A stretch of 64,000 nt of DNA from Capitulum mitella (lineage: Eukaryota > Arthropoda > Thecostraca > Pollicipedomorpha > Pollicipedidae). Location: the NCBI GenBank assembly GCA_030062745.1, contig CP099847.1, forward strand, positions 25,468,923 through 25,532,922, in the 5' to 3' direction. Of the stretch, positions 4,301 through 27,050 are shown piece by piece; the stretch's first letter is position 1; each line of letters opens with the position of its first letter. The translations under genes and the position numbers were made by a program. A model generated the notes under the pieces. The model saw only the letters and a program-made list of their open reading frames with translations, searched no databases and was not told where the DNA came from.

Positions 4301-7300
4301 TCAGCTGGGCACGCTCCAGGGGTTTCACGTGGAAATACGGACGCTTTATCTGAAAACGCCAACAAAGAAAGCGTTGCATTCACACCAAAGTGGCCGGCAC
4401 TGGAATCAATGTGTCGAAAAAACAAGCAATTTCTCACTAAAACTGTTCCATTATCATCTGACACATAACACGGCATTTTTTGCATCTGCAACAGAACATT
4501 TCTCGGTCAACCAGTACGCTTATTGGAAGACATTGTTCTCCAGTATCACTAGCACCACAAAACAACGGCGGAAACACGGCACAAGGACAGCTCGGCCACA
4601 GCCCCGGAAGGACGAAGAGTGCGGCGCCCCCGGTCCGCCCGAACGCACCGCCTCCTCGAACGTCCAGCGGAGCGCCACCTGCTTCTCGTTCTCCTTGTGG
4701 CGCTCCCGGAGCGGCGTCAGGATCCTGGCGCGCAGCCGCACCCCCTCGTCGTCAGAGCTCTGCTGGCACCGAGCACAGCGACCGTCAACGACCTGTCCGA
4801 CACGTGCTGGGAACGGCCCGAGCTGGCAACGGTCTGCTGCTTCGTGACGCTTCTAGTGTGCAAATGAGATGAGACGATCTGCCACATTATGTTTCAAAAT
4901 ATCACGAATCGGTCTTTCTTTCCAGGCATGAATCATGACGGCGGGCACAGCATGATGCAAAAGCAAAACTGCACTGTTACACGCGAGACATGATATTTTA
5001 ACATACCCTGTTGTGGTTAATCACACAAACTGTCGGCCTGACTGTCTGACAGACCAGGCCGGTGGGCCGGGTCCAACACTGTCTGGATGACTACCTGACC
5101 AGTCCGGGGGACCGGGACCGACAATGTATGACTGGATGACTGACTGACTGCCGGACTGACTGCTGGACTGACTGACTGACCAGTCCGGCGGGCTGGGCGG
5201 GCACGCCGGGCGGCGCCTCGTCACAGCCAGGCGGCAGCAGGTCGGAGGTGGGCTCGACCGGCGCCGGCTCCGAGCCCTTCAGCTCGGCCAGCACGGCGCG
5301 GCGCGCCTCCAGAAACTCGCCCACCGTCAGCAGCTCCTGCGGCGGCGTCTCGCCCACAAACTGCTCCAGACTGTCGGCAACAGACGCACACCGCACGCGG
5401 CGTCACCCACCGCCAGCGGCGTCTCGCCAGTGAACTACTCCGGGACATTACAGATATTCTCCAGTAACGCGCCACAGAACCCTGACCGAATATGACTCAA
5501 ACCATGACAGCCATTGGTCGCATCTTCATATCTTGAAACATACAACTACAACGATGATGCATGAACATGACAATAATCTTGAGTCATGCGCCCACTGTGA
5601 ACAACCTTGTCAGACACTTTTCTGCAGCGCTGATTTTTACTGGACAGCCCGCTGCACCGAACGGACGGCGACGAGAGTCCACCTACTTCTCGAAGTGGGT
5701 GCGGTAGGAGAGCGTGGGCACGCCGATGGCGCGTCGGTAGACGGCCAGCGCCCGGGTCGGCTCCTTGTTGAGCGTCTCCCAGCTGGCGTACTGCTCCCAG
5801 AGCCGGTCAGACCTGCGGCGCGTCAACACGGTCAGGGGTGTCCCACCGCGGGCAGGGGCTCTGATGTACCACAAATCACGGACAGGTCAGAACAGCGCCC
5901 GGCACGAACGAGGCCGGCACGGCGGCTGCCTGCTCACAGTCGTCACGGAATCGCCTGAACCCGAGCCGGCAGGCGGTCCCGGCAGCAGCAGCACTCGCCT
6001 GAACTCGAGCCCGCAGGCGGCCACGGCCCTCTCGAAGGCGGCGCGGATTTTCGCCGGCTGCGCCTCGCAGGTGGCGCGCACGTGGCCGACGTAGTGCAGC
6101 CAGAAGTCGACGCTCAGCGGCACCGCCCGCAGGCCGCGCTCCAGCACCTGCGCCGGAGCGGGGCCGCGTCACACAGGGCGCCGCCTCCGCCGCGCGGCAG
6201 GCATTTCTTCGATAGTATTGCGAGGCATGCGGCGGGCGCCGGACGAGGCAGAAATCGTTCGGAACGGCGGCCCGGAGGGCGCTTACCACGGCGGCTGCGC
6301 CCGGTTCGCAACACACACCGGACGGCTTCGTCTGAGAGGCAGCGAGACCCGGTACCGACAGTACCGCGCGCTGGAGGTACCGGCTGTGGGTGGGGTAGCA
6401 CGGTAAGTCACGGGCACACCACACCGCCATCGGAAGAAAATGAATGTCACCATCCCCAGTTAGAAATCAGTCGGGAGCTCGGACGCCCCGGTTTTCTCTT
6501 GCTTACTTGTTCGCATCTCTCCGGGGTGCCCTTCTTCTTTTCGAGGTCCGAGTATTTCTTCCAGTACCCATAGCAATACGAATAACGACCCAGGAACGCA
6601 TCCAGAACTTTTCGGACGTCTTCCATGAGACACTGAAATTTAGGAGTCATTTACGTCGACATGGCTTCCAACCAACCGTATCTTTGGAAAAATCAACACC
6701 ACAATGTGCATAAACCAGGGTAAATATAAATATTGCTAGTAAACAAAGTTAACCACTGAAATAGGCTAGTCACAGCAGTCAACATCCAAATGCAGACCAC
6801 AATAAAGTCAAACTACCAATAGGCCATTTCCATGACCCCGCAATAATCAGAACATAAAAGCAATGACTAAAACCAGTTTTTCAAAACTTCCGCAATCTTT
6901 TGTTCCTTTTTTGCTGTGACGTTTGCAATGTTTAACTGTATGTTAGCAGACAGTGGCCAAACCCCTGTAATTTCACGTAAAAAACAATACACATGAATGA
7001 AAACAAACACGACACAAAAAAAAAAAATGGCAACTAGCATCTGTTCCAGCATCCACGGATCATACCTGGGCCTCAGCGTACTGGATAAGCAGCGTCCAAG
7101 CAGTGAAATCGGCGGGGTTCTCCTTGACCGGCTTCCAGAGCTTCTCCAGCTCCGTCAACGGCGGCTCAGCGGCCTTCGCCGGATCGGCAGCCTTGGCACT
7201 ACCCGCCGGCGCAGCTTTGGCCGCGCCCGCCGACGCAGCTGCGGCAGCGCCCGCCGGCGCCTTGGCAGCGTTCGCCGCCGCCGGCGGGGCGTTCTCCGTG

Positions 7301-7584
7301 CTCGGCGGGACACTGACAAACTCCACGACGGACTCGGCGTCGGAGGGCACGGCTGCGGTCTTGGGCGCCGGCGCGGCAGCGGCTGGGTCCCCCGAAGCCT
7401 GCTCTGGGCCCGCGTCCCCGGCGGTGGCTCTGTTCGCGCCAGTCCCGGACCCGCCCCCGGCCGGGGGAGAACCGCCGGGCTGAGCCGCGCCGGCCGAGTC
7501 GCCGGCGGCCGGGTCGGCCTCCTCCAGGATGTCGGCGAACGAGACGTCGCCGCCGGACGGCTGCTCTGCTACGGCTGAGCTCAT
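1320..7584 (-). CDS. PRPF39: PRPF39, U1 snRNP-associated pre-mRNA splicing factor (12 exons, complete)
   Basis: Nuclear HAT-repeat protein that acts in U1 snRNP assembly and 5' splice-site recognition. Coding exons in transcript order: 7584-7066, 6632-6507, 6147-5999, 5812-5687, 5370-5181, 4759-4649, 4349-4185, 3796-3661, 3402-3197, 2832-2591, 2220-2050, 1698-1320. The phases join without a break into 839 codons. The family match starts at [19 protein letters not shown] (residue about 145) and runs through HAT-type helices, including [30 protein letters not shown] and [20 protein letters not shown], to [14 protein letters not shown]. The first ~140 residues are Ala/Pro/Gly-rich. The C-terminal exon has proline and glutamine runs followed by Tyr/Gly/Asn-rich sequence, as in animal orthologues. 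The start at 7584 is the first ATG before the conserved part; a longer upstream frame (to 7674) is probably 5' UTR. Intron 3 uses a GC donor. Confidence 0.95.
2298..2414. repeat. Direct repeat pair in PRPF39 intron 10
   Basis: Two imperfect copies of about 26 bp (2301-2326 and 2389-2414), both containing CCACTGTCACACTGTCA, lie about 88 bp apart in the intron between exons 10 and 11. They do not overlap a splice site. Confidence 0.6.
5040..5185 (-). repeat. Splice-donor-derived repeats at PRPF39 exon 5
   Basis: On the coding strand exon 5 ends CCGGACTG followed by the donor GTCAGT at 5181/5180. The intron then contains CAGT tetranucleotide expansion and two further copies of the exon-end/donor block: CCGGACTG-GTCAGG with its boundary near 5100, and CCGGCCTG-GTCTGT near 5055. 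Only the first boundary joins in phase to exon 6. Confidence 0.7.
5948..6022 (-). repeat. Duplicated splice donor of PRPF39 exon 3
   Basis: The exon 3 end and its GC donor (coding strand GAGTTCAG-GCGAGT, boundary at 5999) recur 44 bp downstream as GGGTTCAG-GCGATT. The matched block is about 24 bp and includes the last exon bases. Confidence 0.7.
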
Positions 7585-9060
7585 CTCCGCCTCACAGCTG
7601 TCCTGCTTCTGCCATAGGAACAAGGGGATGTGTTCTGTGCAGAAGTGACCACAGCTGATGTGCCATTGTGCCAATTATTTTCAAAGCCAGAATAAATCAA
7701 CATCAACAACCAAACTGCAGACAACATACAACCAAAGCAGGTATTGTGGTTGGAATGTTAAGGAATACTGGCAATGATGGTACATTTCATTACAACATTA
7801 ATTGCATACTTAGAATTCCTGTTCACCAAAATAATAGAAGAGCCTAAAAGCTAAAAAGGCAGGTCATACAAGCATAACTGATGACAAAAAGCAGGTATTG
7901 CTTACTAGAAAACCAACAGATTCTTGATGAAGACCACCCAGCTACAGTTATGACACAACTTCCTAGCCCACTCTGTGATGAAATCTGTTATTTTTCCTCC
8001 AGAAGTCACAATCATAACATTATCTTTTAACCCAGTCAAACCGCCTGCAATGACCCACACAATATTTCCCTCTCAGGGACAAAACACAACCAGAAGGCAC
8101 AACTTTAGAACCATACATGCTCATCCTGCTTAGCACATCCAAACACACACACCATGCTCTATGAATAGTGACTAGATGAATCTTTTGAGGAAAATCACTA
8201 GCCATCAATACCACTATGTCTACAGAGGCACCTCATAAAAATGCCCTTATTTTTAACTGCTGTAATTCCACCCAAGACAATAAATTTATATGTGATGTTG
8301 GGCCACAGGTCAACATATCATTTTATCCACATATCATGTTATGTTGGGTCAACAGTTAACACATCATAATGCTACCATAATCAAACATCTAACAACTATG
8401 AGGACTAAGGATTATCATCAACCTATAAATTAACTTAATTTATTTATATACATAACCATATTTTATTACATATTATAACTAAATTAACTTAACAAATTAA
8501 TATCATGAAGCTATTTACAATATTATGGTCATAAACCAAGCAATGATTGGCAAAGTTAAGAGAGGGAGAAATGACATTAATGGCCACTGTCATGATAACA
8601 GCTAAATAACTAAAATGAAAAACATCTTACACATTATGGGAGGTGCAGTACAAAATAACAGACACATATTGTACTGTATGGAAAATACCCATAGTGTCAA
8701 AAACCAAAAAAGTTATCACTCCTAAACAGGGGTAACTATGAAGGTTCATAGTTGTATGTCCCAATATGGCAAGCAAGGAAAATACCATACTGCAGGCCCT
8801 CTGAAAACAACCTAAAATGGTTTTTAGAATAATTTCCCATTGGTGCAGGTTCCAGCCACTGAAAGTTCAATCTGAAATTACACAAACAAATCATACCTTA
8901 TTTAGTATCAATCTAGATGACAGGCAATGTGAAACGTGGGAACACATCCTTGAACAATTCCAACGCCACACAATAAAACCCACCAGCAGTTCTGACCCGA
9001 ATCCCAACTCCAGCAGAAAACCAGACACTGAAAACACAATTTTCCTATTTTGCAGCCAGT
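7585..9060 (-). other. AT-rich, CpG-depleted DNA, probable 5' leader intron of PRPF39
   Basis: Almost no CG dinucleotides but abundant TG and CA, ending sharply near 9065 where CpGs return. No coding exon is visible. The simplest reading is a first intron of PRPF39 within a once-methylated gene body. No cDNA evidence is available here. Confidence 0.4.
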
Positions 9061-9300
9061 AGCAATCCACCAAAAGCGCGCAAGACTCACAAAAGCAGTT
9101 CTCTACGCGATAAAGAAACCCTGTGTCGTAACAGTCGTAACCGTGGAGCATGTGGCCGGGTACGCCGCAGAACTTCACATTTTACAATGCACCGAGTGCG
9201 CCAGTCTCGCCAGCTGGTGTTTCGGAGGTCATACCCAACGTAACAACATCGTATGGTTGTTTTTGACACTGCCCTACGGAAAACCCTACAAGGCTAACTC
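9060..9300 (-). promoter_or_regulatory. Candidate 5' UTR exon and promoter region of PRPF39
   Basis: CpG frequency jumps at about 9065. On the minus strand a donor-like TTTT-GTGAGT (last exon base about 9091) would end a non-coding exon transcribed from within this CpG-rich DNA. The assignment rests on composition, position and one donor motif. Confidence 0.35.
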
Positions 9301-10734
9301 TTCACATGCAATGATTCCTTTAGCCCTCTTTCTCTGGCGCATGTGAAGCATGAGAGGACTTAAGGCGGCATTTCCGACAATGGCATCGGGATTGCTTTTC
9401 TCCCGAGTTTTTTTGTTTTTTTTTTGGGGGGGGGGGGAAGAAGGCCCGCGGGGGAAAATGAGTGAGACTAAAAAATCCACATGCGTTACCCAGCAAATTG
9501 CTCGACGGAACATTCTTGAACCGATTTCGAAACCCTTCAACCTCATATCTAATTTATATAAGGCTCGTGGGAAGGAAGTGGGCAAACACAGTTGATCTGT
9601 GGATAGGTGCGCTTCATAGACTGTTAAGTCAGGATATAAGTTCATTCGCAGACTCGGCTAACCCGCAGAAGTATACAAAACGCTGTTCCTGCGTCGATCA
9701 TCACTGCGGTCCTGCGGCCAGATGGCTTGTTGAAATGTTGGCCATCATTGACGTACGATTCCAAACGCATACGTACCTATAACACAACAGACCGCGGAAG
9801 CCAATGTTTTTCAATGGTGTGAAAGAGCATCTTAAGAAAGAGCATGTTCTTTGCTCGATTTTCTTGGTAGCTTCCGCAGTTACAGCGAGCGAAAAACATT
9901 CGAACTGAGACGAGCAGGTTACAACAGCGCCGACTTCTGATTTACGCAACTGCTGCCTCGCAACATCGTCAGCAGATCGACGTCCATTTCCCAAAGAGCG
10001 AGGGACCGCTTTGACTTTATATCCTACGTCCAGAACACCGCGGTCGAGCGTAACTTGTCCAAGCTATCACATGAGTGAGTGCCACAAGAGCATGGCCAAG
10101 AATGACCAAGGCGAAGTTGTTCGAATCGCCGTTTCTTGAAGCGTGCAACGCCGAAGCGCTGAACCAAGAAAGTAGAAGATCGATGTCATTCTTAAAAGGC
10201 GCACAAGCGAAATAACCAACTGATCTTATTGGGCACTGATGGCGGGTCACATCTCTACGAACACGTCACCGCGCACATATCAAACAATGGTGTTCCAAGA
10301 CACTATCAAATGAAATAAAATGTCGAAATCGTGAAGAACGACACCCAGACTAACTGGATGTGAAATTAACGGCTTCAAAGGGTACAGAGTTCAAACAACA
10401 AAACGCCCACCTATTCAAAACAATGGCAAGACCTGACCTGCTTTCACAGTGGGTCAAGAATACATCAACACTATCACTATCCAAAGTACATCAAGCCAGA
10501 ACTATGGACTAGATAGTTTAACAACAAACAGACCTCTACAACAAAAGCAACCCTACAATTTCATCGAGTTTATCGGGATCTATGCCCAGATCAAAGGTCT
10601 GCCCGTTTTTCCGACACATATCCATCCCTGCCGTAGTCATCCGAAAGACTGAGCGACTCTGCAAGGGCAACATCCCAAAACCGAAAGAAAAACATGGCAA
10701 CATGGCCTGCCCCTCTTGCCTCCTTGTCCCATTT
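9301..10734. other. Intergenic DNA between PRPF39 and EndoG, no gene seen
   Basis: Mixed-composition DNA with ordinary CpG content and only short unrelated open frames. A T-run followed by a G-run lies near 9411-9437. I see no domain, RNA gene or transposon end. Confidence 0.45.
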
Positions 10735-11020
10735 CCCACCACACAAATCGTCCAAACGGTTAATATTTCTCCATAAAGGCCACTGTGAGCAGTAGGGGAC
10801 AACTCGGGCGCCATCTTCTTCTCTCCATTCCCATTCCCCACCACACAAACAGTCCCAACGGGCCGGATTTCTCCACAAAGGCGAGTAATAGGGACGACTT
10901 GAGCGCCCAGGGCGCACCCCTGTCGTCCTCTTCCTCCATTTCTTCTCCACTCCTCCATCACACAAACAGCAAACGGTTCAAACTCTTCCACAAAGGCCGC
11001 TGTGAGCAGCGGGGACGCCT
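10735..11020. repeat. Three-copy tandem repeat, about 100-118 bp unit, 3' of EndoG
   Basis: Each copy contains a CCACACAAA block, then a CTCCA(C/T)AAAGGC block and a GGGAC block; copies begin near 10737, 10836 and 10954. The repeat lies just beyond the EndoG stop and may be within its 3' UTR. Open frames through it are by-products of the repeat. Confidence 0.6.
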
Positions 11021-11092
11021 CGGGCGGCCGTGGCGCGCCCCCGGTCTGGCAGTGGGCCGGTGTGGCCGCTCTAGACTGTCCCGACCGGGGCG

Positions 11093-14000
11093 TCATAGCC
11101 AGGTGGTTTTGCGGCCGTTCACCCGCTTCAGCCGGCTCCGGTCCATCTTGTCGAAGAAGAGGAGGCCGGCGGCGCGCTCTATTACCTCCGGCGGTACCTG
11201 CCGCAGGCCAGCGAGGTCAGGACGGGTCAGGTCACCTGGTCTAGCCCCCACCCCACCCCGCACCTCTGCTGCAGTCAGGTCTTCTGATCTAAACAACGCA
11301 TCCTGCCAAAGGTCCGCAGGGTCAGGTCGGCTGATCTTAACCCCACATCCTGTCGCAGGCCAGCGAGCCAGGTCATCTGATCTATACCAGATGGACTCTG
11401 TTGCATGTCAGCAAGGGCAGGGCGCGTCAGACGATGCAAATACCCCGCATTACGTCACACGTAGACGGGCAAGAGAGTTTAGAGGGTACCATCAAACCGT
11501 CACGTTCCACTACCGGTGTACCGGGGGTGAGGATGGCAGTCATCTAAGTAGACATGAATCACACACAAGCCACAAAAACACGTGACACCTGCCACCGTGA
11601 CTGCGTACCCAGACCAGTCTTTGAAACACAAAACGTACCCCATAAGACGACCCGGTCTAATACATCCCGTCCACGAATCTCCCCCTATTCTTCAGTTCTA
11701 AACATGACCCAACGGGCGGCCCTGACGCTCCGAATTCCCCTGATCCTCAAACGCTGCGCCCGGAGCGGAGCGCACCAGGTAGTTGGTGATGGGCGTCTCG
11801 TTGGGGATCGCCTGGTTCGGCATGACGTACGCCTCCATCTCCAGAGCGCCGGCCGTCGTCTCGCCGACCACGATCTTGTAGAAGTGGGTCGGCACGGCCA
11901 CGTGGTTTTTGCCCAGCACCTCATAGCTGACGCGCAGTCGGCCGTCAGCCTCCCGCCTGCGGCAGCAGCCATGACGTCACGTCATCGCGGCCGACTGACG
12001 CTCGAACGGCGCACGCTGTTCTGGCGCAGTGACGTCGCAGCGAGGAGCACGGGCCGAGGTGAGACGTCAGGGGCAGAGTGGCGGCCAAACGTCACATGGC
12101 CGACTGGCGGACATGGAGAGACTTGACCACGAGCCGAAAGATACTCATATACTACTAATAGCACTATTAGTGGACTACGGAGATATTCTCTAATGCTTTT
12201 GTCAGATCACTACACAGCTTGAGGTGGCAGTCATGAGATCGCGCGGGTCAGTTACCGAGGGCCAACCATCGCACCCCTCGGCCAGAAAAACCCATGACGA
12301 CAAGGCCAGCTATCTTATCATAGCGTGGCCAGCAGTCGACACCAGACGGCAGCACGCCGTTCTCGCTGTTCACCCATTCTCTGCCGTTTACCTCTGCACA
12401 GTGATAGGATGACCGACTCCGGCGGCGCCGCGCCGCCCCGCGGCAACAGACGGCGGGCAGAGCGAACTCCGACCGCACCTACCTGGGCAGGAACAGCGGA
12501 CCCGTGCAACACGTACACGTTGGGATACACCTTGCACAGCTTGCGCACGTGCATCTCCAGATCGTTCCACTTGTCGCGGTTGAAGCCGACGCCGACCTGG
12601 GACCACAACGGGGGCGGCTCAGCATCGACTAAAAATGGCCGCAGGGCCCTGAGGACGGCCGGAAACGTTCACTTCCGCTCACGAAACGCACATTTCGCTG
12701 GCCTTAAAGTACAGCCCGGGAGATTTACCACTTTACTGAATGTCTCAATGCAGAAAACAATGACAGGGGAAAACAAACAAAAACAATCAACAGTACACAA
12801 AATTCTTAGACAACAGTCTCGTTAGCGCGCATTTATCTCATTAATGTTTACTCTCATAGGCGGGACGCGAATTCCGCCGGTCTTAAAGTGCAGCCCAAGA
12901 GGTTTATGGCTTTTCTGAATACCTAACGACAGTTGCCAATGGCTAAGAAAAACAAGAATAGTCAACATGGCAAGCAATATCAAAACACTAGTCTGCGAGC
13001 ATTACGTCCAGATCCGACAATATACCACATAACCAGAATTCACAAGTATCCCACATCGCCGAGTGGCGCCGGCACAGGACGCTCACCTGCGGCGCCATGT
13101 TGGAGAGCAGGAAAGTCTCCTGGTGCTCCTGCTGCGAGCGGCGGTGGTTGGCGGCGGCCGCCATGTGCCCGCGGTCGTACCCGCTCCCCTTGTAGTCGCT
13201 GTTCTCGGCCCTGTTGGCGGGAAGGTCGCCGGAACGTTAGTTCGCTGTTAGTCTCAGTCGGGCGCGAACGGCGCCTGGACGCAGACCATCCGCGCCAACC
13301 ATGTCCCTATCGACTACCGACAGCCGTACCACGAACACGGAAATCAGACTCCGGCCACGGAAACATATATCTCTTGCGATGCACCTGGTATCGGCACTAC
13401 ACATGGGTGCTCTCGGGACTAAGTATGGGAGGACCGCCTCTCATCTGAAGTGCAGGTGTATGGAATAATATCTCTGACCTCCAGTGGGAGGACACGGAAA
13501 ACCATCTCTGATCTGAAGTACAGGTGTACGGAGGACCATCTCTGACCTCCAGTGGGAGGGTACAAAGGACCATCTCTGACCTGAAGTGTGAGTGTGTGGG
13601 AGGACCATCTCTGACCTGAAGTACGGGTGCATGGAGTGTACCCCCTCTGTACCCTCCAGTGGGCGGGTACAGAGGACCATCTCTGACCTGAAGTACGGAT
13701 GTATGGAGGTGTCGGGGGTGAACTCGCAGCCGGCGCGGTCCACCTCTTCGTTGCGCCGCACGCTCTCGGCGGTCAGGTGCTCGAACACCCAGTGCGGCAG
13801 GCGCGCGCGCCGGTCGTACGACAGCACGAAGTCGCTCAGGGAGCGGACGTTGTCCAGGCCGGGGAAGCCAAACTTCATGATCTGCCGGGCGACGGAGGCC
13901 GACTGCTGTCAAATATCGGCCGGCCACGTAGCCGACATGGCCTGGATTTCGTGTATGCCTGCGATAAATGGCTCAAGTAATTTCGCTACATAAAAGGTCT

Positions 14001-17000
14001 CATACAATTCAAACGCGTAAGGCAATGGAACCATTCATTTTGTGTGGAAAGTGGTAGACATTCTGTTTTTCCCGGTCGGATACTGCCTAAAACTAACTTA
14101 GTTACTCTGTTGCGTACGTCCATGCTTCCTATTGAACAGTGGACCTCTTCCCAACAATACAGCGCGCAAAATTTGTCCCTCACGGGCCAAAGGTCAGTCC
14201 TCACTCCTCAAGAAGGCTTCTTCCACTACCCTCGCGGAAAAAACAAAAGTGCAACATTTACATGTACTTGATGAGTCAACAGGCTAACTTTCCACACAGC
14301 CTCCCTGTGTATACCACAGTAACTCGTGCCCTAGGAGCTGGAAGCCCAGAAGGTTAAGTATCATATTTCGTGCTCATATTTTTTGCGGGCGAAAGACCCC
14401 AGTGAAAAGTGATCTCTAAATGTGGACCGAAAATCTGCCATTCCCCACGTTCCGAAGAAAACTAGCTCCACTCCCGCATCAAAAATGGTCCACGTAGTAT
14501 CAGAAACGCAAAAAGGTAACCAATTACCTCATTTTCACTGCCCACAACGACGTAACACAATTTCATCACGTACTTTTTATCTTCCTTTTCCTGTAGTTGT
14601 TTCGCAAAGAAATACTGACGTAATTTCACTCATGATCCTCCTCGAACTGTGCCATGCTTCACAGAAAATCCTCCACTGTGCAGTCGTAATGTGCATCAAG
14701 CAAAGCCTCTTCGACAAAGGACGACACGAAAACGGGATCCTCCCTGGAGGATTGTAGTAGAAGAAAGGGTTGTTCATGAAAAACACTACGTCTCCGCTAC
14801 CATTTCCTGCCACCATATCTCCATAAGAATTTTGCAGACTCACAACACTCAAGATGGCTGAAAAACCATCGAAATCTCCATCGAACGCTGGCTTGAAGCC
14901 GACGCCCATGAAGTTGTTCGCGACATGGGAAGTTGAGAGAACATCCCCGATTTGCATAGCGAGGCAATGCACACTCAAACTTGCTCGCCTCAATGTGGTT
15001 CGGCCATTTAGCTCTGACCTGGGGTCTCTTCTGATTGCTGTCAAGATGCAGAGTGCCAAAAGGACACTGCGGTCAAATGAAATTCCTCTGCAACCGACCG
15101 GGCTTCTGGACACTGAGCTTGATCTGACATTCTCCATGCAGTATCCCGCACTATCTCAAAGGTGAGGGCAACAAGCTGCAAATAATGCTGCAAAGGCGTA
15201 AACGTTACAAAAACAGGACCATCCTGGGCTTCAAAACTCTGGCTGTGGGTGTGATCAATATGTCACAAATATTGCAGAGATCTGTTGACAAGGACTTGAG
15301 GCTGTATTCTGACCCCAAAGAGCGTCAAAACCTTGCCGCCATTCTGACCATGGAATCACTGGTCAGCCAGCCTGTTGAGCAGGAAGACATGCACATACCA
15401 AAGAGCATGGACACACCGTATCGATATGATTCTGAGGAAGAAGAAGAGTACAGCACCAATGATGAAGGCTCAGATTCAGAGCCTGTCCTGGATTCAAGAG
15501 GTAAGCCACCATCCATCAAGCATGTTGGTTCTAACCTCAGGCAGAGAAACCTGAAAGAGAAGTTCATGACAATTTGGAAGAGATTCAAGGTATCAGAAGA
15601 TCTCCAGGGTTTGGATCAAGACCAGGACATTGATCCAAAACTTGCAAATGAAGTTGGCGAGCTGGATGACTTCCTCAATGAGCTTGAGTATGCTTCTGAT
15701 TCTGGACAAGAGATAGATACCATGAGCATCACCTCCATACCAAAGCCATCTCTGCGTCCATTCTTCTCTTCATCACAAAACCTTCTGAGTGATAATACTC
15801 TTGCCAGCAAGGTTCCCCCACATACTTAGGGGCACATGCAAGAACTGTGTAAACAGGCATTTACAAGTAGGCGTGCTTCCAAAAGTGACTGCATTCATAT
15901 TGCAAGTCATCCACCCAAGGTGTTGACAAGAGTATTAGGTTGCATTTGTAATGCTAGCTACCTGTGAAGCATAAAGACATGGTGTGGGTAGGACAAAACC
16001 ATACCAAATTATTTGTAAGTAGGTCACATGACAGGAATGACTGTAGGCTAGCTTGTAACACTGGTGATGTATTTTTCATGAGCAGCAAGATGTTTTCATT
16101 GTCCCAGTTGCTTAAAATGGAGCTTTATTTGTATTGTTTGCAATGGACTTACATGAAAATACACAACAAAATGCACAAAGTTCTTTTTCCTGTTGATGGT
16201 CATGGCATTAACTAAAGTGTAATCACAGCACAAAAGCATGCAACATGGTGAATGCAGTCTGTAAACAATGCTGCAGTGCAGAATTAAGTTCAATGAAGGG
16301 CCCTTGTTTTAGCAATTACTTTGGATGCTGAATACCATTTGCTATATATAAACTTTGATGGGTCAACTTAGTTCAGATTGTCAAAACAGGTGCTGACTCA
16401 GATTCCAAGCCCCATGCTACCAGGCATGTTTGCAGTCAAATGTTATCTGACTTAAATGCCATCACTAAATCTCAACAAAACTGTTTGCATACATCAATTT
16501 TAATTTGTTACCATTAAATACCAGTGAAATCATTTGCATGTATTACTTTTATTTTTCAACTTAAGGCACCACCCTGGGCTTGGTTTAATCCTCTAGCAGA
16601 GTTTGTTAGTGTCATCTCCCTTGTCACCCATTTCAGCAGCTTCACAACATTGTGCAACAATCTGCAATGTTGCAAGTGTTGCCATATATGGTATGTACAC
16701 AGATGCTGCAGACTTGCAAATGCTGGCTGCATGCTTTGAAACACCATGTTTAATTACATATTAACCTTGAGATACCCACATCTTTCAAAGATAATGGCCA
16801 CCAAACTTCTATTCTGGACCCAAATACAGAGGTAACTACATTCAAACAGGACATGACCTTGACAAACTAATCATATTTGAAAAATGGCTTGGCAAAAGAT
16901 GTTTAGATTTCCAGAACTACAGAAGAAATGTGTGAAACTCTCATAATGAAAGCTTTATCAGGACAGCTCTTAAGCAGAACACAATTTATGAACAAAAACC

Positions 17001-17690
17001 TCATAGAACAACTGAGGTCCTTCACTAAGCAATGGCTGAGTATCTCATATGGAATGTGACATAAGCCAACAAGTTTACATTTTGTGTTAGTGTCCAGACC
17101 TCAAGGACAGCCAGCCATGATGACAAAAGGCATAATTTCAACCTGCATGCCCTCAATTCCACTGACCATGCTCTCAATTCCTCCTGCACCAAGTGATGCC
17201 TGATCTGACTTCATCACTGGAACAGCATGGTTCATCTTCCATTTCAGAGTGACTTCCAGTGAAATTTTGTAATACTTTCCATGGCTATGGCGGGCATTTT
17301 TGCTGTGACGAGCACGCACGCTCTTTAGTTTTGGGAAACAAAAGGATGAACACCAAACCATATTTCGTCCAGACAGTGGCAGTGTGGGCCTGTCGGTCCG
17401 TCGTAGTCCGTTCCCGTGTGCTGTTCGCGCTGGACGGGAGAGGAACTCACCTGCGACACCCTGCTGACGTTCTTGGCTGGCGGCTGGTCCGTGCGGACGT
17501 CGGCCACCTCGGCGTCTCTGGGGATGGGCAGCGCGGCCGAGACCGTGCCGAAGAACGGGTGGCCGGGCGGCGGGCGGCCCCGCGGCGGCTCGCCTCTGCT
17601 GGCCAACCAGCCAGCCAGCCAGCCGCCGAGGCCGGCGGAGACGCCCACCGCCAGCCGGCCCAGCGACATTCTGCGGCGACAGCGGGTCAT
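11093..17690 (-). CDS. ENDOG: Endonuclease G, mitochondrial beta-beta-alpha-metal nuclease (6 exons, frameshift in exon 4)
   Basis: Mitochondrial DNA/RNA non-specific nuclease. Exons in transcript order: 17690-17451, 13881-13688, 13210-13087, 12596-12483, 11956-11776, 11197-11093. Exon 1 encodes an Arg-rich, Ala/Gly/Trp N-terminus that fits a mitochondrial leader and membrane segment; a second ATG at 17669 is an alternative start. Exon 2 carries MKFGFPGLDNVRS. Exon 3 carries the catalytic DRGH (about residues 157-160) followed by MAAAANHR. Exon 4 carries the metal-site region FNRDKWNDLE. Exon 5 carries GKNHVAVPTHFYK and exon 6 VIERAAGLLFFDK. All exon phases join except exon 4, which is one base too long: the conserved CTGPLFLP segment sits in the next frame, so an extra base lies near 12508-12511. 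This is either a sequence error or a real disabling mutation. Expected length without it is about 318 residues, normal for the family. Confidence 0.88.
11198..11415 (-). repeat. Acceptor-derived tandem repeat before EndoG exon 6
   Basis: The true acceptor reads CTGGCCTGCGGCAG before exon 6 (boundary 11198/11197). Upstream in intron 5 (higher coordinates) the block recurs about five times at irregular 35-60 bp spacing, for example CTGGCCTGCGACAG near 11360, TTTGGCAG near 11305 and CTGCAGCAG near 11270, interleaved with GATC-rich blocks. Confidence 0.6.
12665..12990. repeat. Two-copy direct repeat in EndoG intron 3
   Basis: A block starting CGCTGGCCTTAAAGTACAGC (about 12698) recurs as CGCCGGTCTTAAAGTGCAGC (about 12876), each followed by similar (C/T)TGAAT and CAAT(G)-containing sequence. 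It lies in the intron between exons 3 and 4, away from the splice sites. Confidence 0.55.
13441..13700 (-). repeat. Splice-donor-derived minisatellite at EndoG exon 2
   Basis: Exon 2 ends TACTTCAG followed by GTCAGAGATGG (boundary 13688/13687). The intron repeats this junction about seven times in alternating half-units of about 35 bp: one reads ACTTCAG-GTCAGAGATGG and the other CACTGGAG-GTCAGAGATGG, with boundaries near 13616 and 13581 and further, more degenerate copies to 13441. Confidence 0.8.
14854..15829 (+). pseudogene. PACS: Processed retrocopy of a PACS (phosphofurin acidic cluster sorting) gene, frameshifted and truncated
   Basis: PACS proteins are cytosolic sorting adaptors whose N-terminal furin-binding region recruits cargo and AP-1. 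Here that region is encoded without introns. PMKLFATWEVERT, LIAVKMQSAKRTLRSNEIPL and LLDTELDLTFSMQYP are read from the ATG at 14854. The homology then continues in another frame as NKLQIMLQRRKRYKNRTILG to a stop at 15829, including the acidic stretch YDSEEEEEYSTNDEG. The frame change falls in a CCC run near 15140-15143, where one C too many gives an early stop at 15163-15165. Only about the first third of a usual PACS protein is present. PACS genes in animals are split by many introns, so an uninterrupted copy implies retroposition. It is less GC-rich than the neighbouring exons and lies antisense inside EndoG intron 1. I see no clear poly(A) tail or flanking duplication. Confidence 0.8.
15830..17450. 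other. AT-rich, CpG-depleted remainder of EndoG intron 1
   Basis: No gene is visible on either strand apart from short chance frames. CpG is rare from about 15.1 to 17.3 kb and returns in EndoG exon 1. Confidence 0.45.
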
Positions 17691-19099
17691 GCACGTGACG
17701 GGCGACTGCACGTCAGTGTGTCTAGGCCTGCAGGCCAGGATAATGGAGCAGGCAGGGATGCATGCCTGACAGATGGTATAGTCTGGTGCCAACAATGACT
17801 CAAAGTTTGTTTCTTTGACAAAGGTACTAAAAGTTGTTTATGATATGGAATCTTGAAAATCATCACATTTGGGCTCACATGGGAGTCTAGGGCATCATTA
17901 TTACTGTAATCAGGTTGCTTAATTTAAATAGTCAAGTTGTGGTATTCAGAAACAAAATGTATTCTTTAGTGAAATTCTGGGGCTGGATGTACCAAAATGG
18001 ACATTTTCAAAGAAACTATTTCATGAAGATACAAATCACATCTGACAAATCTAGTTAATTCACTCAAAATATCCATGACAACAATAAATTATACATTGAG
18101 TCTAAAATGAACTTTAGTGCTACCAAAACAAAAATGGCTGAACCATACACAGTGAATGTAAAATTGGCATCATGAAAGTGTTCATGCTATTCCACACATT
18201 ATTTTTTATACACTGGCCACATATCTGGCTGAGCCTAAACTGGAAATTATTACCTTACATGCACTGATTCATTGTCTGAACAGTAAGCAAAAATGAGACT
18301 TCTAGATTATTGCCAGCTGCCACTTTTCTTCAAAAATGGCTGGCATGAATTCTAATAAATATTGAAGTTACTAACAAGTTTTCCAGGTCAAGAGGAACCA
18401 CATTGGTGACCAATATACAAAACAACTGGACCAGGCCAAAATCATTGATAATTTGCAAAAAATGCAATGCACAATATCAAGTGACATCATAATCAGACAC
18501 AACAATTAAATTCAACTTAACTGCCTGATAAGGAACATCCTTTTCATTTTACTTGGAAACCTCATGCAGTGTCACCAGAGCTCCCAGTAATGGCAAAAGT
18601 AATTTAGTTTAAGCATAGTTTGCCAAATTTTTGCCTAAAAAAATTCCTTTAGAATGAGATTGACATTTGGCCTGCCATAAATTATGCATTGGGCTATGAG
18701 CAAGAGATCTGTGACTGGTGTCACAATGGTTAAAAAATGGTCACTGTATCTAAAAAAAACACTGCAGGGTACAAAATCTGGGAAACATTTCCAGTTCCCA
18801 GCCTGGGAATATGCTAACAAACAACTGCATTGCATCATATCATTAGACTGCTCATGGTTCCATTTTAAATCAATGCATCTGTTGGTGCTTACAGGTATTT
18901 CCCAGAAAAATGCACCCAATGTGATCGGGGACATTGTTCATATCAACAAAATCTTTTTGTGAGATGGAGTGTGGCAGAACATTCCATGTCCCTTTTCAAG
19001 AAAAACAATTTGTTGTTGTTTTTAAGGAAAAAACAGCAAAAAGACAATCACCACATAAACATACAGCAAATAAACATATGCACATTCTGCCACCAATTT
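17691..19099. other. AT-rich, CpG-depleted DNA upstream of the EndoG coding start
   Basis: No coding potential is recognised. It is likely a 5' leader intron of EndoG if transcription starts in the CpG-rich block at 19.1-19.8 kb. Confidence 0.4.
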
Positions 19100-19840
19100 T
19101 TCGCTGTTCCAATTTGCTGTTCGCAGACTAGTTGACAAAACCAGGACAATATCAACGAGGAAAACATTTGAGCGGCCGTAGGGCAAAAGTTACCAAAGCT
19201 GCCCATACTTACTGCGATGAAAAGATAGAATTTTCGTTCGCGCTTACAAGGAAGCCTACAGTCCCCGCCTCGACTTGAAAACCTTGCTTGTTCTAACAGG
19301 TCGCAGGGCCGGAAAGCATGCCGAACATTACCACATTCAGCGAATATAAATTGACATAATTGGCGCAACTGCGACAGTGTCAGAAATGTTAATCCACTTG
19401 CGTAAACAAATGATTTAAGACGGGGAAAAACAAGTTGATTCACCAGTACCTTTCGGTAAGTTGCAATGAAACTTATCAAGTTCGCGCTGGTTGTTGTACC
19501 ATTGGTCCATAACACCAGAGCTACCATATGCACGTCAAAGTTTTCCCTTTTTGGAAAACAGATTCCCGAATGATTCGCTTTCCCTGGTTATCTTGTGGCA
19601 GTGACCGCATTGCTGGGCTGTCTTCCTCTCGGTTCTCCAGGCGGTTTTACGCGTCGTCGAGTCTTGAATGATTCGGGAATACAAGAAATCATATATCTTC
19701 ACGATGGACAATCCCAGCAAGCTGTGAGAGGGAACTCGACCCGTAAGCAGAAATGAAGTCAATGTCAAACCCTGTGGATACTTTCAATGTCTAGACCTGT
19801 TTCTCGTCATGGGTAGATTGAAGGATAGGTTGGTAGCCGT
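19100..19840. promoter_or_regulatory. CpG-rich island, candidate shared promoter of EndoG (-) and the BTB-WD40 gene (+)
   Basis: This block has many CG dinucleotides while both flanks (17.8-19.1 kb and 19.85-22.3 kb) have almost none. It lies between two divergent coding starts at 17690 (minus) and 21485 (plus). A strong donor on the minus strand, GCA-GTAAGTATG with last exon base 19213, could end a 5' UTR exon of EndoG. Plus-strand donors at 19456 (CG-GTAAGT) or 19743 (CCC-GTAAGC) could end a leader exon of the BTB gene. No TATA box was recognised. This is an inference from composition and layout. Confidence 0.45.
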
Positions 19841-21484
19841 GTTTGGTCATCTCAGTTTGCTTGCTTTCTGATTCATATGAATAAACCAGCATTGTCTTCT
19901 CATAGAGCCAGAGGTTGTTGAACAAGCCCATACTACTTCCCATTTGTGATTGTGTGTTAGATGCCAGCACATGTTTAATGATTCTGTTCATGATAGCTGA
20001 CCCAAAACAATTTGCACATCAAGGATGTAATTTTGAGATGGTCAGATCCATTGGTGTACTGTGGAGGGTCCTGAATAAATGTATGTGTTTGGAGATGTTT
20101 TCAGGTGCTGCAAGTGAAGGCAAATTCTAGTTACATATTTTTTTACCAAAAGTGCAAATACTTCTGCCTGTGGCCCAGTCCATTGCCATTTAACATCTGG
20201 GACAGATTGAGTAATACATGTAGTGTAAAAAGTCATTTCAGATGTTTGTCTTCCATTTTTATGCATGCATTTCAATAGCAAAAATGACTCTAGTGTTGTC
20301 AAAGATTGCAGGAAACAGACAGGTTTTGGCCTGTTATATGCTGTCTTTTCTGAAAGAGCAGTGGTTGCTTGATGCCCTTCTGCTGCCCATGCTTTGTGTA
20401 TTGATTATCTTGCAGAGACTGCCCTGTTTCTGACCAGGTACTAAAGAGCATGTAAAGGAAAGGTTGACCTACCAGCTGTTCAGAATGTCATGTGAATTGA
20501 CAGGATACTAAATGTTTTGGGATAAATGTATCTGGTTAAAAGGAGTGGAGCATAACACATTCATCTTTCCCTTCAGCCTAGGGCATCCTTTGTCACTGAA
20601 CTTTGGGGGAGTCTTTGGAATATTTGACTAGTGTAATTGTGACAATATCATTTCTGTCAAAATTCAGCCTTATTTCTAAGACTCTGGATGTGTTTAAGTC
20701 ACAAGGTTATGCAGGCAGAGACCTAATCTTGGGCAATGTACCAAGCCAACCAGCAGGTACATGATTCTGATAGTCATGAACATTGGTTCAGATGCAAAAA
20801 AATTTCCATGAATCCAAAGTTGCATGGTCAGTGTATGTGTGTCAGGAATGGACATACTGTGGTGTGAAATTGTGGCTGTCATGGAAAAGATATGAGCATT
20901 GCACTGTTTTGCAAGGATGGTTCTGACAGTATATCCCTATGCTGCAGTTGTGACTGCATAGTGGACAAAACAGATATGCTATTTCTACAGTCCTGATGTA
21001 TGCCATATCTTTTTTTGCTTGACTGTGATGTGCTTTGGATTGGGATGTTGGATCCAGGGATCTCTTCTAAAACAGCTCTTTGGAAGCAGGTCTTTGGAAA
21101 CCTGCTTATTCACTGACCAGTGCAAGAAGTCAGACCATTGTCATATTTTTGTATCAGCAATACAAAGCATAAGGAATTTAAGTCATAAGTTCTTTGCCAG
21201 AGAGCATAGCATTTAGTGTGATGTGCAAAACTGTGGAACACCCTTGATGTGTGAGTGGACCCTTTTGGTGTTTGGTCTATGCATGGTGCCATTAATCATG
21301 GATTCATTAACAGTTCAGTTTTTCAGGTTTAGAAATAGATTGCTTTGAAATTGAGTGATCCAGGTTGCTTGATTTATTGAGTTTTGGTGAAATGCCTTGT
21401 GGAAATGGCAATTTAACCTATTTCATCTTCTAGGACTGGAACTGGTGGTCATTTCAAGATTTTGAAACTGAGAGAACCTTGAAA
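19841..21484. other. CpG-depleted DNA before the BTB-WD40 coding start
   Basis: TG/CA-rich, CG-poor sequence with no coding exon recognised. Probable leader intron of the plus-strand gene. Confidence 0.4.
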
Positions 21485-24400
21485 ATGGCAAACCTTTCAG
21501 AAATTGTGAATTTGAATGTTGGTGGAGTCAGGTGAGTAAAATTCCATGTTTATATTATTTGATTGAGAGCAAAGGCAGGATCCAGAAACAAACTGCTATT
21601 TGAGAGCCTTCAGTTATGACAAAATACTGCAACATGAACCAACAACATGGTTTGACAACTCATGCTCCTTATCTTAATGGCATCTGCATCCCATGGGTGT
21701 ATTTTAATCACAGTTTTGATCAGAAATTATCCATAATATTGGTGTCTCTGGTTTTCTGTGAGGAATATCTATGATGCTCATCCAGCTTCAGGAATATTCA
21801 GTTTTCCTCACAGAAATGAGAAACACTAAACATTGGCCACCTTGATGTACTTGTCCTGACTTATCCCTTATGCTGGTTGGCAAAAGCCCTTTTGTAAAAG
21901 TTGTTTCCCCCTGTATCTTGTTTAAGTCAAGTCTGCAGATCCCCTGTAGTGTAGACACTATTAATAGATCCGTCTTTTTCACAGTCATGCAAATATATAG
22001 CAACAGATGCTGCTCAGCTCTCTGTATAGGCTCAAGTCCAGCATCATGCTTGTATTTTCAGAGCTAAAGAACCAAATGATAAATGCTAACTCTGAATGCT
22101 GTCATGACTGTTAGAAACATATTAGTGCTAAAGGAAGATAATAAAAGTACATTATCAGCATTTGGGTGGTCTTCTTTGCTCTGAGGAAGACTGCTACTTG
22201 TCATTGGTCAGTACATCTGCTGGGCTCCTTTGAGTGGTAACTCTTGCATATAGGGCGCTCCAGGACAGTAATGCCAGCTTGCAGTTTGACTTTGCCTTGA
22301 TGGTTTGGGGGCTTTTTTTAGGACGAAATGTCGGCATGTTTCCATCCAGCTGCGTGGCACATCAGTGGCGTGATTCGGTCCCGGGATGTTTTGACTGACG
22401 GCAGAGCCGGGCGTCTCGGTGACGCCGGGCCGCCCGGTCCGCCCGGCGGACGCCCTGGTGACGCGCGGCCCGGCCCGGCCCGGCAGGTTCTCCACCTCCA
22501 GGCAGACGCTCACCTGGATCCAGGACACGTTCTTCACGGCCATGCTGAGCGGGCGCATCTCCAGCATGCGGGACGAGACGGGCGCCATCTTCATCGACCG
22601 CGACCCCAAGCTGTTCCGCGTCATCCTCAACTACCTGCGCACCAGGGACATCGACCTCAGGTGGGGAACCGGACTGCTTTGGCCGGGGCCGAATCGGTAA
22701 ACAACTGCGTTTCCGTCATTGGAATCGTCTTGTATGTCGGAACTGTTTCTGTTGCTTTGAATCACTGTGCATCTGAGCAATCCTCGAAGTACTAGACGTT
22801 CATGCGTCTGTCATTTTCGAGTAACTGTTACGGATTGGTCCTTCCCAGACCAAAATACATCAAAAGAGAGAAGCAAGTCCTGCAGGCTGTATTAATAATG
22901 TTAAGCTTCGTGGTCATTGTATCGATTGTCCGTGATAGTGAAATAGTTTATCTTCGTGATGATCGTAACCGAGCTTGGTGATGTCGGCTGCGGCTCCTCG
23001 AGTTTTCATGGTTGACCAACACCCCCGCGTTTCGTGCCCATCTGTAACCCCGTCCCGATTCAGGCCCATACCGCCGTTCTTGGTGCGCTGACCTGTACCA
23101 CGACCCGCGGTCATGGTCTGTACTGTCGTCTCCCAGTACCGTCCCCTGCGCTGACCCGACCTGCCGCCGCCTGCTGCTGACCCTTGCCACCGTCCCGCCG
23201 TCAGCTGTCTGGAGCTGGACGCCCTGCGACACGAGGCCGAGTTTTACGGCCTGCAGCCGCTGGTGGGCCGTCTGACGCTGTGTCAGGACCTGGCGGCGCC
23301 CACCTGCGGCGGCGTGCTCTTCCACGGCCTACTGCCGCCCGCCGGTCAGTACAGGGGGACCCGGCCGCTGGTCAGTACAGAGGGACCCGGCCACTGGTCA
23401 GTACAGAGGGACCCGGTCACCATTCAGTACAGGGGGACCGGTCGCCGGTCAGTACAGGGGGACCGGTCGCCGGTCAGTACAGAGGGACCTGGCCGTCGGC
23501 CAGTACAGGGGGACCCGGTCACCATTCAGTACAGGGGGACCGGCCGCGGGTCAGTACAGAGGGACCCGGCCGCCGGTCAGTACAGAGGGACCCGGCCGCC
23601 GGTCAGTGCAGGGGGACCCGGCCACTGGTCAGTACAGAGGGACCTGGCCGTCGGCCAGTGCAGGGGGACCCGGCCACTGGTCAGTAAAGGGGGACCCGGC
23701 CTCCGGTCAGTACAGGGGGACCCGGCCTCCGGTCAGTACAGAGGGACCCGGCCGCCGGTCAGTGCAGGGGGACCCGGCCACTGGTCAGTACAGAGGGACC
23801 CGGCCACTGGTCAGTACAGGGGGACCCGGCCTCCAGTTAGTACGGGGACTCCGTAATGACCGGAGAGTGCCGAGGAGACCGAGGTTAGGTGGGGACGCTG
23901 TGTCGTGGGAAATCGAACAGGGGATCTGCCTCCGTTGGGAGTGTGTGAGACCTGCGTTAAATATTTGAGATGATTTGGGTAGCGTGGTCAGACATTGTCG
24001 TGCTTTGTCGTCAGACGTTGTGTTTCCGCGATGTGAACACAAACATGAAAGTTACTGCTGCAAATAATTGACTCGGCAACCAAAATCGGCAGTTGTAATT
24101 TGTTATGTGTGGCACTCGCCTTACGTTCGGGCCGCCGTCATTGCGGTTACGACGGCAGTCGTCGCTACCCTGGTAACTTCGTGTTTTTCTGTCCTTCCGA
24201 CAGTACCTCCGCCGTCGCCGCACCAGCCGGAGCAGCCGGAGGCGGCAGCCAGGCCCGGCTCCATCATGCGTCTTCCAGAAACACCGCGGGGACACTCCAG
24301 GCAGTCGTCCGCCGACCTCAGGTCAGTAACTCGGGTCAGATCCCGCGGGGCCATTCCCAGCAGTCGTCTGCCGACCTCAGGTCAGTAACTCGGGTCAGAT

Positions 24401-27050
24401 CCCGCGGGGCCATTCCCAGCAGTCGTCTGCCGACCTCAGGTCAGTAACTCAGGTCAGACTCCGGGGACACCCCAGCTGGTATCCGTTGACCCCAGGTCAG
24501 TAACTCAGGTCAGACTCCGGGGACACTCCAGCTGGTATCCGTTGACCCCAGGTCAGTAACTCAGGTCAGGTCCCCGGGGATTCTCCAGCTGGTGTCCGCC
24601 GACCTCAGGTCAGTACCTTAGGCGAGGTTCCGCGGAGCCACTCTCGACAGTCTTCCGCCGACCTCAGGTCAGTACCTCAGGACAGGTGCGCAGGGCACAG
24701 CATGATGTCGAGTCTTTCTGGAAAGTCGCTGATTTCAAAGTCACGTCATTTCATGGAGCGACTGAACCGTGGCAGGGTGCTCGCTTAACGCGGGCTTGAC
24801 TGCTGCCCATGAAGCCATTGTCTTCCCCGCCGGCCGTCACCCGCACGCCGTCTGGGAATGACAAGAAGTCTAGTAACGGCCGCCGCTGCGCCAGGTTCGG
24901 GTGCGGCCTGGCGGCGACATTACCTTGTGTACCCCTCCACTGACTGTCGCCGCTGCGCCAGGTTCGTGTCCGGCCTGACGGCGACATTACCTTATGTACC
25001 CTTCCACTGACTGCCGCCGCTGCGCCAGGTTCGTGTCCGGCCTGGCGGCGCGGCCGGCGGCGGCGCTGCCGCGGCCCGGCCACTCCCGGGGCGGCTCGCT
25101 CGACCTGCGCCACTCGCACTCGCGCAGCTCGTCGGCCGACCTGAACCGGCTGCTGCGCGCCGAGCTGGGGCCGCTGCTGGCGCCGCCCGTCAGCGGCTGG
25201 CCCGAGCCGGCCGGCGTCCGGATCGTGCGCGGCCACCACAACTGGCTGGTGGCCGCCTACGCCCACCACGTCTCCTGCTACAGGTAACCGGTCTACAGGG
25301 CGGTCACGGCGAGGGGTCGCCCCCCAGAGTACTTGCTTCGGCCGGCTGGGTTCGGCATGGAATCGGTGATTGGGTGGCTGCTGAGGACGGAGCGTTTTTA
25401 ATTTGTCATGTGTGTGAGAAAGACTTTCGTATGGTGGGTATTCTTGTGTGATTTGTTTTGCGTCATTACTTCGGAAAGCGTTGTGCGCACTTTCATGTGG
25501 GCACTTAGGTCTCGCATAACCACGTCTCGCAGAACCGCACATCACGGCGAATTGTACTTGTCTTTGGAAAATATTCCGGGAAGTCACGCTACCGTCCGCA
25601 CACTTTTTCACGTCCACCACTGACTCATGATTATCACGTCTGTTGGTGCCAATTGTAGGTCAGGCCCTCCCCTAAGCTCGTGTGTTGTCCGGCTGTTGGC
25701 GTGCCGGGCGACGTGCTGACCAGTCCAGACTTAGACCCGCCTCCGTCGTCTCCCGCGCCGTTAACGCCGCGCCTGTGCCGGCCGCGCAGGATGAAGGACT
25801 CGACCGGGTGGCACCTGTTTTACACGTCGCCGCACGTGGCGGCCACCATCGACCGGGTGGCCATCAACGCCAAGGTGGGGCCGAGCGGCTCCGTGGCGGA
25901 CGTCAGCACCAAGATGCTGGGCATCAGCTGCGGGCCGACCGTCCACCTCTGGGGCATCTCCGAGGACGGCTCGAAGTCGGACGTCGGTCAGTCCGGTCAC
26001 CAGGGGGCGGGCTGTCGACCGGGCTGAAGTGGGGCTTGGCAGCAGTGGAGTGTTTTGCTGATGCTTGTCTGTAGGAGTCGGATATTGGCTGGATAGTGGG
26101 AGCAGGGCGCCTCGCTCGCTCACTTTGGAGGCTTTTTGGTGGTCGACGTTAACGGGTGCTGATAGTCGGCAAACACGTGTTGGAAATATTTCCGACCTTA
26201 GCTCTGTAACCCAAAGTAACCTTTTTGGTTCCCATCGAAAGACGTGCCTCTGCGATCGGTATGACTCGCGTCCTCCATTTCTGCACGTCTCTGCCGTCCT
26301 ATCGTGTGCGCCGCAGTCGGCCGCCGGCGGGCTCCCACAGCTCGGGCGTGCCCTCTGCGCCGCCGTCCGCCCTGACACGGCCGCCGCCCGTCCCCAGGCC
26401 AGTTCAACCTGGGCGTGCCGGTGGAGCACCTGTTCTTCATCGGGCCGCAGCTGGTCGGCCTGTCGTCGGTGGGCAGGATCGGCGTCTGGCACGCCATGTC
26501 GCACCACTGGCAGACGCAGGAGGTCGGCCACATCTCCAGCTTCGACCGCGCCGGCAGCTTCCTCCTGCTGGGCGGCACCAACGGCTCCATCTACTACATC
26601 GGTCAGTGCGGCGCCGCGCCACCCGGCCTTCGTCCCAGCCGGCGCACGGCCCGCCCTGTAGCCTGCTCTGGCTCGCATTTCTCATTGTTAAAAAGGTTCG
26701 AACGTTAAGTGTCAGATTCAAGAGCTTTTGTCGTCGAAAAAGGATGATTGTAACTGCGTGTCGTGAAATCATAGGAACGACTAAGAAATACGCAACATAT
26801 TGTAGTCCCGTTGCAGCTGTCGGTCGGAAGACGATGTCCTATGGTTATTTTACCTTTTTATCTCCAGGAGAGGTTACTGCAGCATTGAGTATCCGCTTGT
26901 GCTAAATATTTATGTAATCCTTTTCACCGACAGATATGCAAAAGTTCCCGTTGCGAATGAAAGATAACGACCTTCTGGTGACCGAACTTTACCACGATGC
27001 CAGTAACGACCCGATCACGGCCATCAGTGTGTACCTGACCCCCAAAACAA
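21485..27050 (+). CDS. SHKBP1/KCTD3: KCTD3/SHKBP1-type BTB-WD40 protein, N-terminal eight exons only
   Basis: BTB/T1 plus WD40 protein. In vertebrates SHKBP1 affects EGFR/Cbl-CIN85 turnover and KCTD3 regulates HCN3 channels. Exons: 21485-21531, 22487-22660, 23205-23344, 24204-24321, 25029-25283, 25790-25986, 26398-26601, 26934-27050. Phases join throughout to about 417 residues, ending in an open phase-1 donor (A-GTAAGT). The T1 fold starts at [17 protein letters not shown], followed by [20 protein letters not shown] and [10 protein letters not shown] Ser/Arg-rich linker follows. The WD40 part includes [50 protein letters not shown] and [18 protein letters not shown], and ends at VYLTPKT. Family members have roughly 300 more residues, starting with a GNWxEIAYGTSSG block. 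No such exon is seen up to the array at 29.2 kb or within it. The start is the only ATG in frame just before the T1 motif. Confidence 0.9.
23340..23845 (+). repeat. 26-bp minisatellite seeded on the exon 3 splice donor
   Basis: Exon 3 ends CCGCCG followed by GTCAGTACAG (boundary 23344/23345). The intron then has about 20 tandem units of 25-27 bp, each with a (G/T)TCAGTACAG(A/G)GGGACC core and most preceded by CCG or CTG, so most units re-create a GGTCAGT donor. CAGT positions run from about 23346 to 23836. As 26 is not a multiple of 3, the two long frames through it are artefacts. The repeats are too short, with no spacers, to be CRISPR. Confidence 0.85.
24290..24690 (+). repeat. 56-59-bp tandem repeat of the exon 4 exon/intron boundary
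   Basis: Exon 4 ends GTCGTCCGCCGACCTCAG followed by GTCAGTAAC (boundary 24321/24322). The same junction recurs with boundaries near 24380, 24439, 24495, 24551, 24608 and 24667, giving seven copies at 56-59 bp spacing. Each unit contains the last ~25 bases of the exon and ~30 bases of intron. Only the first is preceded by the rest of the exon. Confidence 0.85.
24850..25050 (+). repeat. 67-bp tandem repeat of the exon 5 acceptor
   Basis: The acceptor of exon 5 reads CGCCGCTGCGCCAG-GTTCGTGTC (boundary 25028/25029). The same boundary occurs 67 and 134 bp upstream (AG at 24960-24961 and 24893-24894), including about 25 bp of exon sequence (CCGGCCTGxCGGCG). The third copy is used, because it alone continues into the open WD40 exon. 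Confidence 0.8.

Follow-up and report, generated by a model that had tools for sequence, protein, structure and literature searches.

Splice junctions in three unrelated genes of Capitulum mitella are copied in tandem arrays whose repeat unit includes the exon-intron boundary itself, and arrays of the same kind recur in other genes of this genome. We interpret these arrays, with a probability of about 0.6, as mirages, that is, as minisatellites founded by a tandem duplication that chanced to cover an exon-intron boundary and tolerated there rather than targeted to it. The three genes lie in a stretch of 64,000 nucleotides (C9:25468923-25532922, hereafter the window) in a genome of 477 Mb in 16 contigs.

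The genes and arrays of the window are given in Table 1. The first gene, which we take to be PRPF39 from a reading of its sequence, has one exon with weak TPR matches below the cut-off and none on exon 5 in a Pfam search. EndoG carries Endonuclease_NS matches on exons 2 and 3 (E=2e-9 and 7e-14). The BTB-WD40-type gene, presumably KCTD3/SHKBP1-like, has a BTB_2 match on exon 2 (E=5e-14, Pfam search), and no Pfam match was obtained for its exons 3, 5 and 7. The junctions were placed by sequence match, and two uncertain PRPF39 junctions were dropped from 47 to give a window set of 45; the same five clear cases are found in both sets. The window also holds eight RR-type cuticle protein domains (PF00379), clustered on the minus strand at 30473-60932 with a spacing of 3.1-6.0 kb, in tandemly duplicated DNA whose listed self-matches are about 76-96% identical. 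In the whole genome, 150 scored matches to this domain were obtained among 627 candidates. Expansion of PF00379 cuticle proteins is a mark of arthropods.

Table 1 Genes and junction-associated tandem arrays in the window (positions are those of the window).
Feature	Position	Strand	Remarks
PRPF39 gene	1320..7584	-	exon models; last two junctions uncertain
PRPF39 exon 5 donor array	5039..5200	-	TRF; exon end 5181; copies at +81 and +126 bp
PRPF39 exon 3 GC-type donor (weak)	5940..6025	-	one extra copy, 44 bp into intron
EndoG gene	11050..17669 (low end approximate)	-	6 exons modelled
EndoG exon 6 acceptor (weak)	11197..11400	-	three degenerate upstream copies; TRF 11273-11384
EndoG exon 2 donor array	13428..13701	-	TRF 13428-13694, periods 34, 68 and 107; exon end 13688
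BTB-WD40-type gene	21485..27050	+	first 8 exons modelled, splice sites by sequence match; gene runs on downstream
BTB exon 3 donor array	23335..23847	+	TRF; 26-bp unit, 19.9 copies, GGTCAGTACAG in most
BTB exon 4 donor array	24284..24685	+	TRF; unit about 59 bp, 6.9 copies; exon end 24321
BTB exon 5 acceptor array	24879..25050	+	TRF; 67-bp unit, 2.6 copies; real exon start 25029

A junction was regarded as clearly copied when the 30-mer centred on it recurred with at least 22/30 matches elsewhere within 300 bp. Clear tandem copies of the junction itself were found at 5 of the 45 window junctions, namely at 4 of 23 donors (EndoG exon 2, PRPF39 exon 5, and exons 3 and 4 of the BTB-WD40-type gene) and 1 of 22 acceptors (exon 5 of the last gene). 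The first copy of the BTB exon 3 array straddles the exon end at 23344, and 18 sites resemble this donor at 17/27 matches or better, the real one counted, with a spacing of mostly ~26 bp. GC replaces GT in 2 of these 18 sites, GT is lost in 4 of the 20 copies of the array, and most decoys have donor scores of 7.4-8.0, compared with 7.4 for the real site. Interior copies are 0.83 identical to each other, compared with 0.79 for the exon copy and 0.73 for the last copy, which is the direction expected from the mirage pattern of a homogenised interior with divergent edges, the difference being small and taken from one array. The exon 4 unit takes in about 38 bp of exon, and its array presents seven donors including the real one, all scoring 9.9. 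Three acceptors including the real one are present at exon 5, with the copies at -67 and -134. The EndoG exon 2 array consists of copies of ACTTCAG/GTCAGAGATGG, with five further copies of the 30-mer and four donors including the real one. Both main copies at PRPF39 exon 5 are in frame. Of the four clear donor arrays, three include copies whose offset shifts the frame, so that regular use of those copies would disrupt the protein.

The preliminary description had named seven junctions as seeds of tandem repeats, of which these five are clear and the remaining two are weak, though visible. The extra copy of the PRPF39 exon 3 donor has 19/27 matches and 19/30 by the 30-mer test, and the copies of the EndoG exon 6 acceptor at -105, -152 and -200 bp have 16-19/27 matches and 18/30 by the same test. 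An apparent GC-AG donor, TTCAG/GCGAGT, was read at PRPF39 exon 3 (window 5998-6009, minus strand) from the frame across the intron. Unit sizes and copy numbers agree with those given before. As the preliminary description held, the arrays are not one dispersed repeat and they recur at junctions of unrelated genes; look-alike splice sites are indeed multiplied, as by the seven donors of the exon 4 array.

Outside the window, ten arrays of the word AGGTCAGT were followed. The first 100 listed places, all of them on C1, contain 13 clusters with multiple pairs, from which the ten were chosen by hand after viewing the units, so that they form a non-random set. The coding score at the first copy exceeded a threshold of 0.2, which was picked post hoc, in 8/10 of them, compared with 88% of sampled donors and 10.8% of 1,039 non-exonic AGGT sites, suggesting that AGGTCAGT arrays favour donors. 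The same threshold was passed by 0/3 control arrays of AGGACAGT (Fisher p=0.035) and by 3/10 single AGGTCAGT sites outside arrays (p=0.07). Above 0.5 the shares were 4/10 arrays, 7.1% of controls and 69.5% of true donors. Homology was found beside five of the ten arrays, to POLO_box, Kringle (with Fz below the cut-off), SAC3_GANP, cobW and Wnt5a. The SAC3 and Wnt5a matches reach the last residue before the array, whereas those to POLO_box, Kringle and cobW end 6 to 55 residues short of it, so that in those three the exon end is placed by reading frame and splice signal. Nine of the ten arrays passed the coding or the homology test, indicating that junction-spanning arrays are not peculiar to the window. 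The exception, L093, passed neither (coding score -0.07, no Pfam match); L105 failed by codon score (-0.58), yet matches Wnt5a. The L097 exon has GTGAGT as its own donor, and AGGTCAGT first appears in a later copy. The L095 exon is arrayed at both ends, with a 29-bp unit in 14.2 copies up to its acceptor and a 32-bp array from its donor. An array of AGGTGAGT at L102 (C1:5575098-5575417) lies next to an exon with an ERM-like match (E=0.0036, below the cut-off), and its unit seems to join an acceptor to a donor across 15 bases, like a copied micro-exon.

Repeats are dense in this DNA. In the window and the gene loci together, 79 arrays (period at least 12, score at least 50) cover 10,740 of 277,889 bp, and a donor-like motif (score at least 7) is present in 20 of the 79, the window arrays included, compared with 7.9 in random stretches. 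As tandem repeats the arrays exceed chance, but against this background their overlap with junctions shows no excess of the kind that the splice-site-targeting process proposed in the preliminary description would call for. In the window, 5/47 junctions lie in arrays compared with 7.2% of positions (binomial p=0.25), the latter taken over positions 1000-27100 at every third base, with the arrays themselves included. For comparison, exons were anchored by homology to the Pfam families Myosin_head, Kinesin and AMP-binding, starting from 116 places (47/86, 51/129 and 18/18 listed matches, judged inside loci), of which 112 were within loci. Ends close to a domain end were removed, as were low-scoring sites and splice sites more than 30 bases from the end of the homology match, leaving 95 donors and 95 acceptors. 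A junction-straddling copy with at least 22/30 matches within 150 bp was found at 6/190 of these junctions (3/95 donors and 3/95 acceptors), compared with a share of 4.2% over every position of these loci (p=0.59). For this sample, though not for the whole genome, this is the type of outcome that the preliminary description had named as refuting its proposal. At the same threshold, offsets within the sampled exons gave 0-3% and donor-side intron offsets from +20 to +200 gave 4-7%, so that junctions resemble introns more than exons and do not rise above introns. Runs of myosin exons that all match one stretch of the profile (about 377-440) were also seen at C16:5450234-5453643, C15:16425920-16428593 and C14:17197973-17199021, and we take them to resemble the mutually exclusive relay exons of muscle myosin.

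The edges of arrays show some clustering near donors. Seven edges fall at -20..+40 bp compared with 1.5 expected (p=0.0009, with bins picked post hoc), and seven compared with 3.0 in the symmetric range of -60..+60 (p=0.03); the acceptor side has six compared with 3.2 (p=0.1). Expected counts were taken from the 100-700 bp range. Only two of the seven donor-side edges extend into the exon.

Word frequencies do not single out donor words as a class. A tandem pair was defined as a word occurring twice with 18-48 bases between, and pairs were divided by single occurrences genome-wide; since a few long arrays yield many pairs, these ratios are not counts of events. AGGTCAGT ranked first of six words (1,627/31,843, 5.1%), and its whole-genome count is itself about 2.5x that of AGGACAGT. 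The latter, which is without the donor GT, gave 359/12,945 (2.8%), AGGTRAGT 355/19,541 (1.8%), and the reversed controls TGACTGGA, TGARTGGA and TGACAGGA gave 314/24,166 (1.3%), 135/32,285 (0.4%) and 255/17,810 (1.4%), respectively. Because AGGTRAGT falls below the non-donor AGGACAGT, donor words in general were rejected as array seeds; an apparent fourfold donor effect had come from the reversed-word controls alone. The pattern GTAAGT N10 GTAAGT was discarded as an uninformative indicator, with 114 matches compared with 532 for its control. The core TCAGGTCAG resembles arthropod telomere repeats, and telomere-like seeds were set aside after no telomere repeat turned up in six contig ends of 300 bases each, of which one was all N.

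The donors affected are mostly of the GTCAG type, which matches a word common on both strands of the minisatellites of this genome. On either strand, GGTCAG is present in at least two copies in 12/79 arrays (about 3.0 expected) and AGGTCA in 11 (2.2 expected), both being among the commonest six-letter words of arrays. In the window, 4/6 GTCAG donors lie in clear arrays compared with 0/17 other donors (Fisher p=0.0017). The link was not significant in the unbiased sample (1/7 and 2/88, p=0.21), and the pooled figures of 5/13 and 2/105 include a window that was chosen for its arrays. The donor-sense strand expected for GGTCAG was contradicted outside the window, where the word is antisense to the gene in 7/9 arrays and cannot act as a donor there; both sense arrays overlap exons with called donors. 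Single GGTCAG copies outside arrays lean the same way (78 sense, 123 antisense), so that strand is weak evidence.

The mirage reading would account for these observations as follows. The genome appears to form short local tandem duplications readily. Where one falls over a junction, the exon-proximal true site would stay in use and the copies would become intron; these intronic copies would carry decoy sites and be free to expand and contract, probably by slippage or unequal exchange, whereas duplications within exons would be purged by selection. Tolerance rather than targeting would then shape the pattern, with the decoys presumably spliced out. That mostly GTCAG donors are affected may stem from word bias: the minisatellite word (A)GGTCAG equals the donor type CAG/GTCAGT, so that such donors would be over-represented among arrays.

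The edge concentration and the coding-like starts lean toward a different origin, in which duplication starts at donors through a process coupled to splicing or transcription, such as breaks or R-loops at intron 5' ends, and junctions are truly targeted. The contrast in starts between AGGTCAGT and AGGACAGT arrays, the homology beside half of the former and the L095 exon with arrays at both ends also argue for such a process. We nevertheless consider it unlikely, given that sampled junctions are not enriched over background, AGGTRAGT pairs are rarer per occurrence than those of non-donor AGGACAGT, the coding-start contrast weakens against single AGGTCAGT sites, and acceptors are affected as well. 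The absence of excess in both the window and the sample would fit sheer coincidence, given a genome rich in minisatellites and introns rich in G+C, leaving neither word bias nor edge effect to explain. The edge concentration, the GTCAG association in the window and the 8/10 coding-like starts, each based on small numbers, would then be unexpected, and coincidence alone seems improbable to us.

That the arrays are kept for a function, with rows of donors, G-runs or acceptors strengthening or tuning exon recognition, is suggested by decoys that score no lower than the real site, all of them at exon 4 and most at exon 3 of the BTB-WD40-type gene, and by GTCAG donors being those affected in the window. 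Homogenisation of minisatellites by itself keeps copies alike, though, and the loss of GT from copies of the BTB exon 3 array speaks against maintained donors; we give this explanation little credence. Tandem repeats misassemble easily, yet an assembly artefact is very improbable, as the copies differ, unlike doubled reads (interior BTB exon 3 copies are 83% identical on average), and such arrays are also present in genes on other contigs. The most likely explanation is ordinary minisatellite formation in a genome rich in repeats, with arrays retained at junctions where splicing passes over the decoys, rather than a process shown to be aimed at junctions.

The preliminary description knew of no precedent, but one has been published. 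Amphioxus mirages are described as tandem duplications of exon-intron boundaries in Adh3, the globins BflGb6 and BflGb9, troponin C and PGBD5; both boundary types are affected, the mechanism is said to be unclear, and a route to intron gain is proposed (PMC3087553; PMC3902484). They are reported there to occur without interference in regular splicing (PMC3087553). The amphioxus cases and the arrays here share a unit that includes the boundary, donor and acceptor sides, unrelated genes, and AG/GT signals in many copies. In C. mitella, the unit spans the boundary at 5/45 window and 6/190 sampled junctions, donors and acceptors are both affected in window and sample, and the repeat sequences differ between unrelated genes. 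Unlike the amphioxus mirages, the present arrays are from an arthropod, reach 20 copies of a 26-bp unit and feature GTCAG donors prominently. With ordinary intronic minisatellites they share unit size, copy divergence and local tandem growth, but their first copy holds exon sequence and a working splice site. Intron gain by tandem genomic duplication, as in the potato RdRp case (PMC4974935) and in the AG/GT duplication model of Rogers as cited in PMC3087553, likewise involves a duplicated AG/GT junction; in those cases a new intron arises from an exonic duplication, whereas the arrays here copy a junction already present and make its intron longer. No arthropod mirage was found among the matches listed for a few choices of words in open-licence full texts, which is weak evidence that the phylum is without a recorded case of this kind.

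A broader proposal would be that, in this arthropod lineage, CAG/GTCAG donors act as hotspots for tandem duplication, with a few percent of all junctions in junction-spanning arrays. This would be a general and ongoing source of decoys and of longer introns, and perhaps also of introns gained or shifted, that arose independently in arthropods and amphioxus; we regard this as doubtful. Junction-spanning arrays show a genome coping with many decoys of equal strength, and thereby offer a natural test of exon definition. Introns might also lengthen, slide or be gained by this route, which the amphioxus reports discuss for a few genes. Many cases in another animal lineage, far removed from amphioxus, would open this idea of intron change to tests with population and RNA data.
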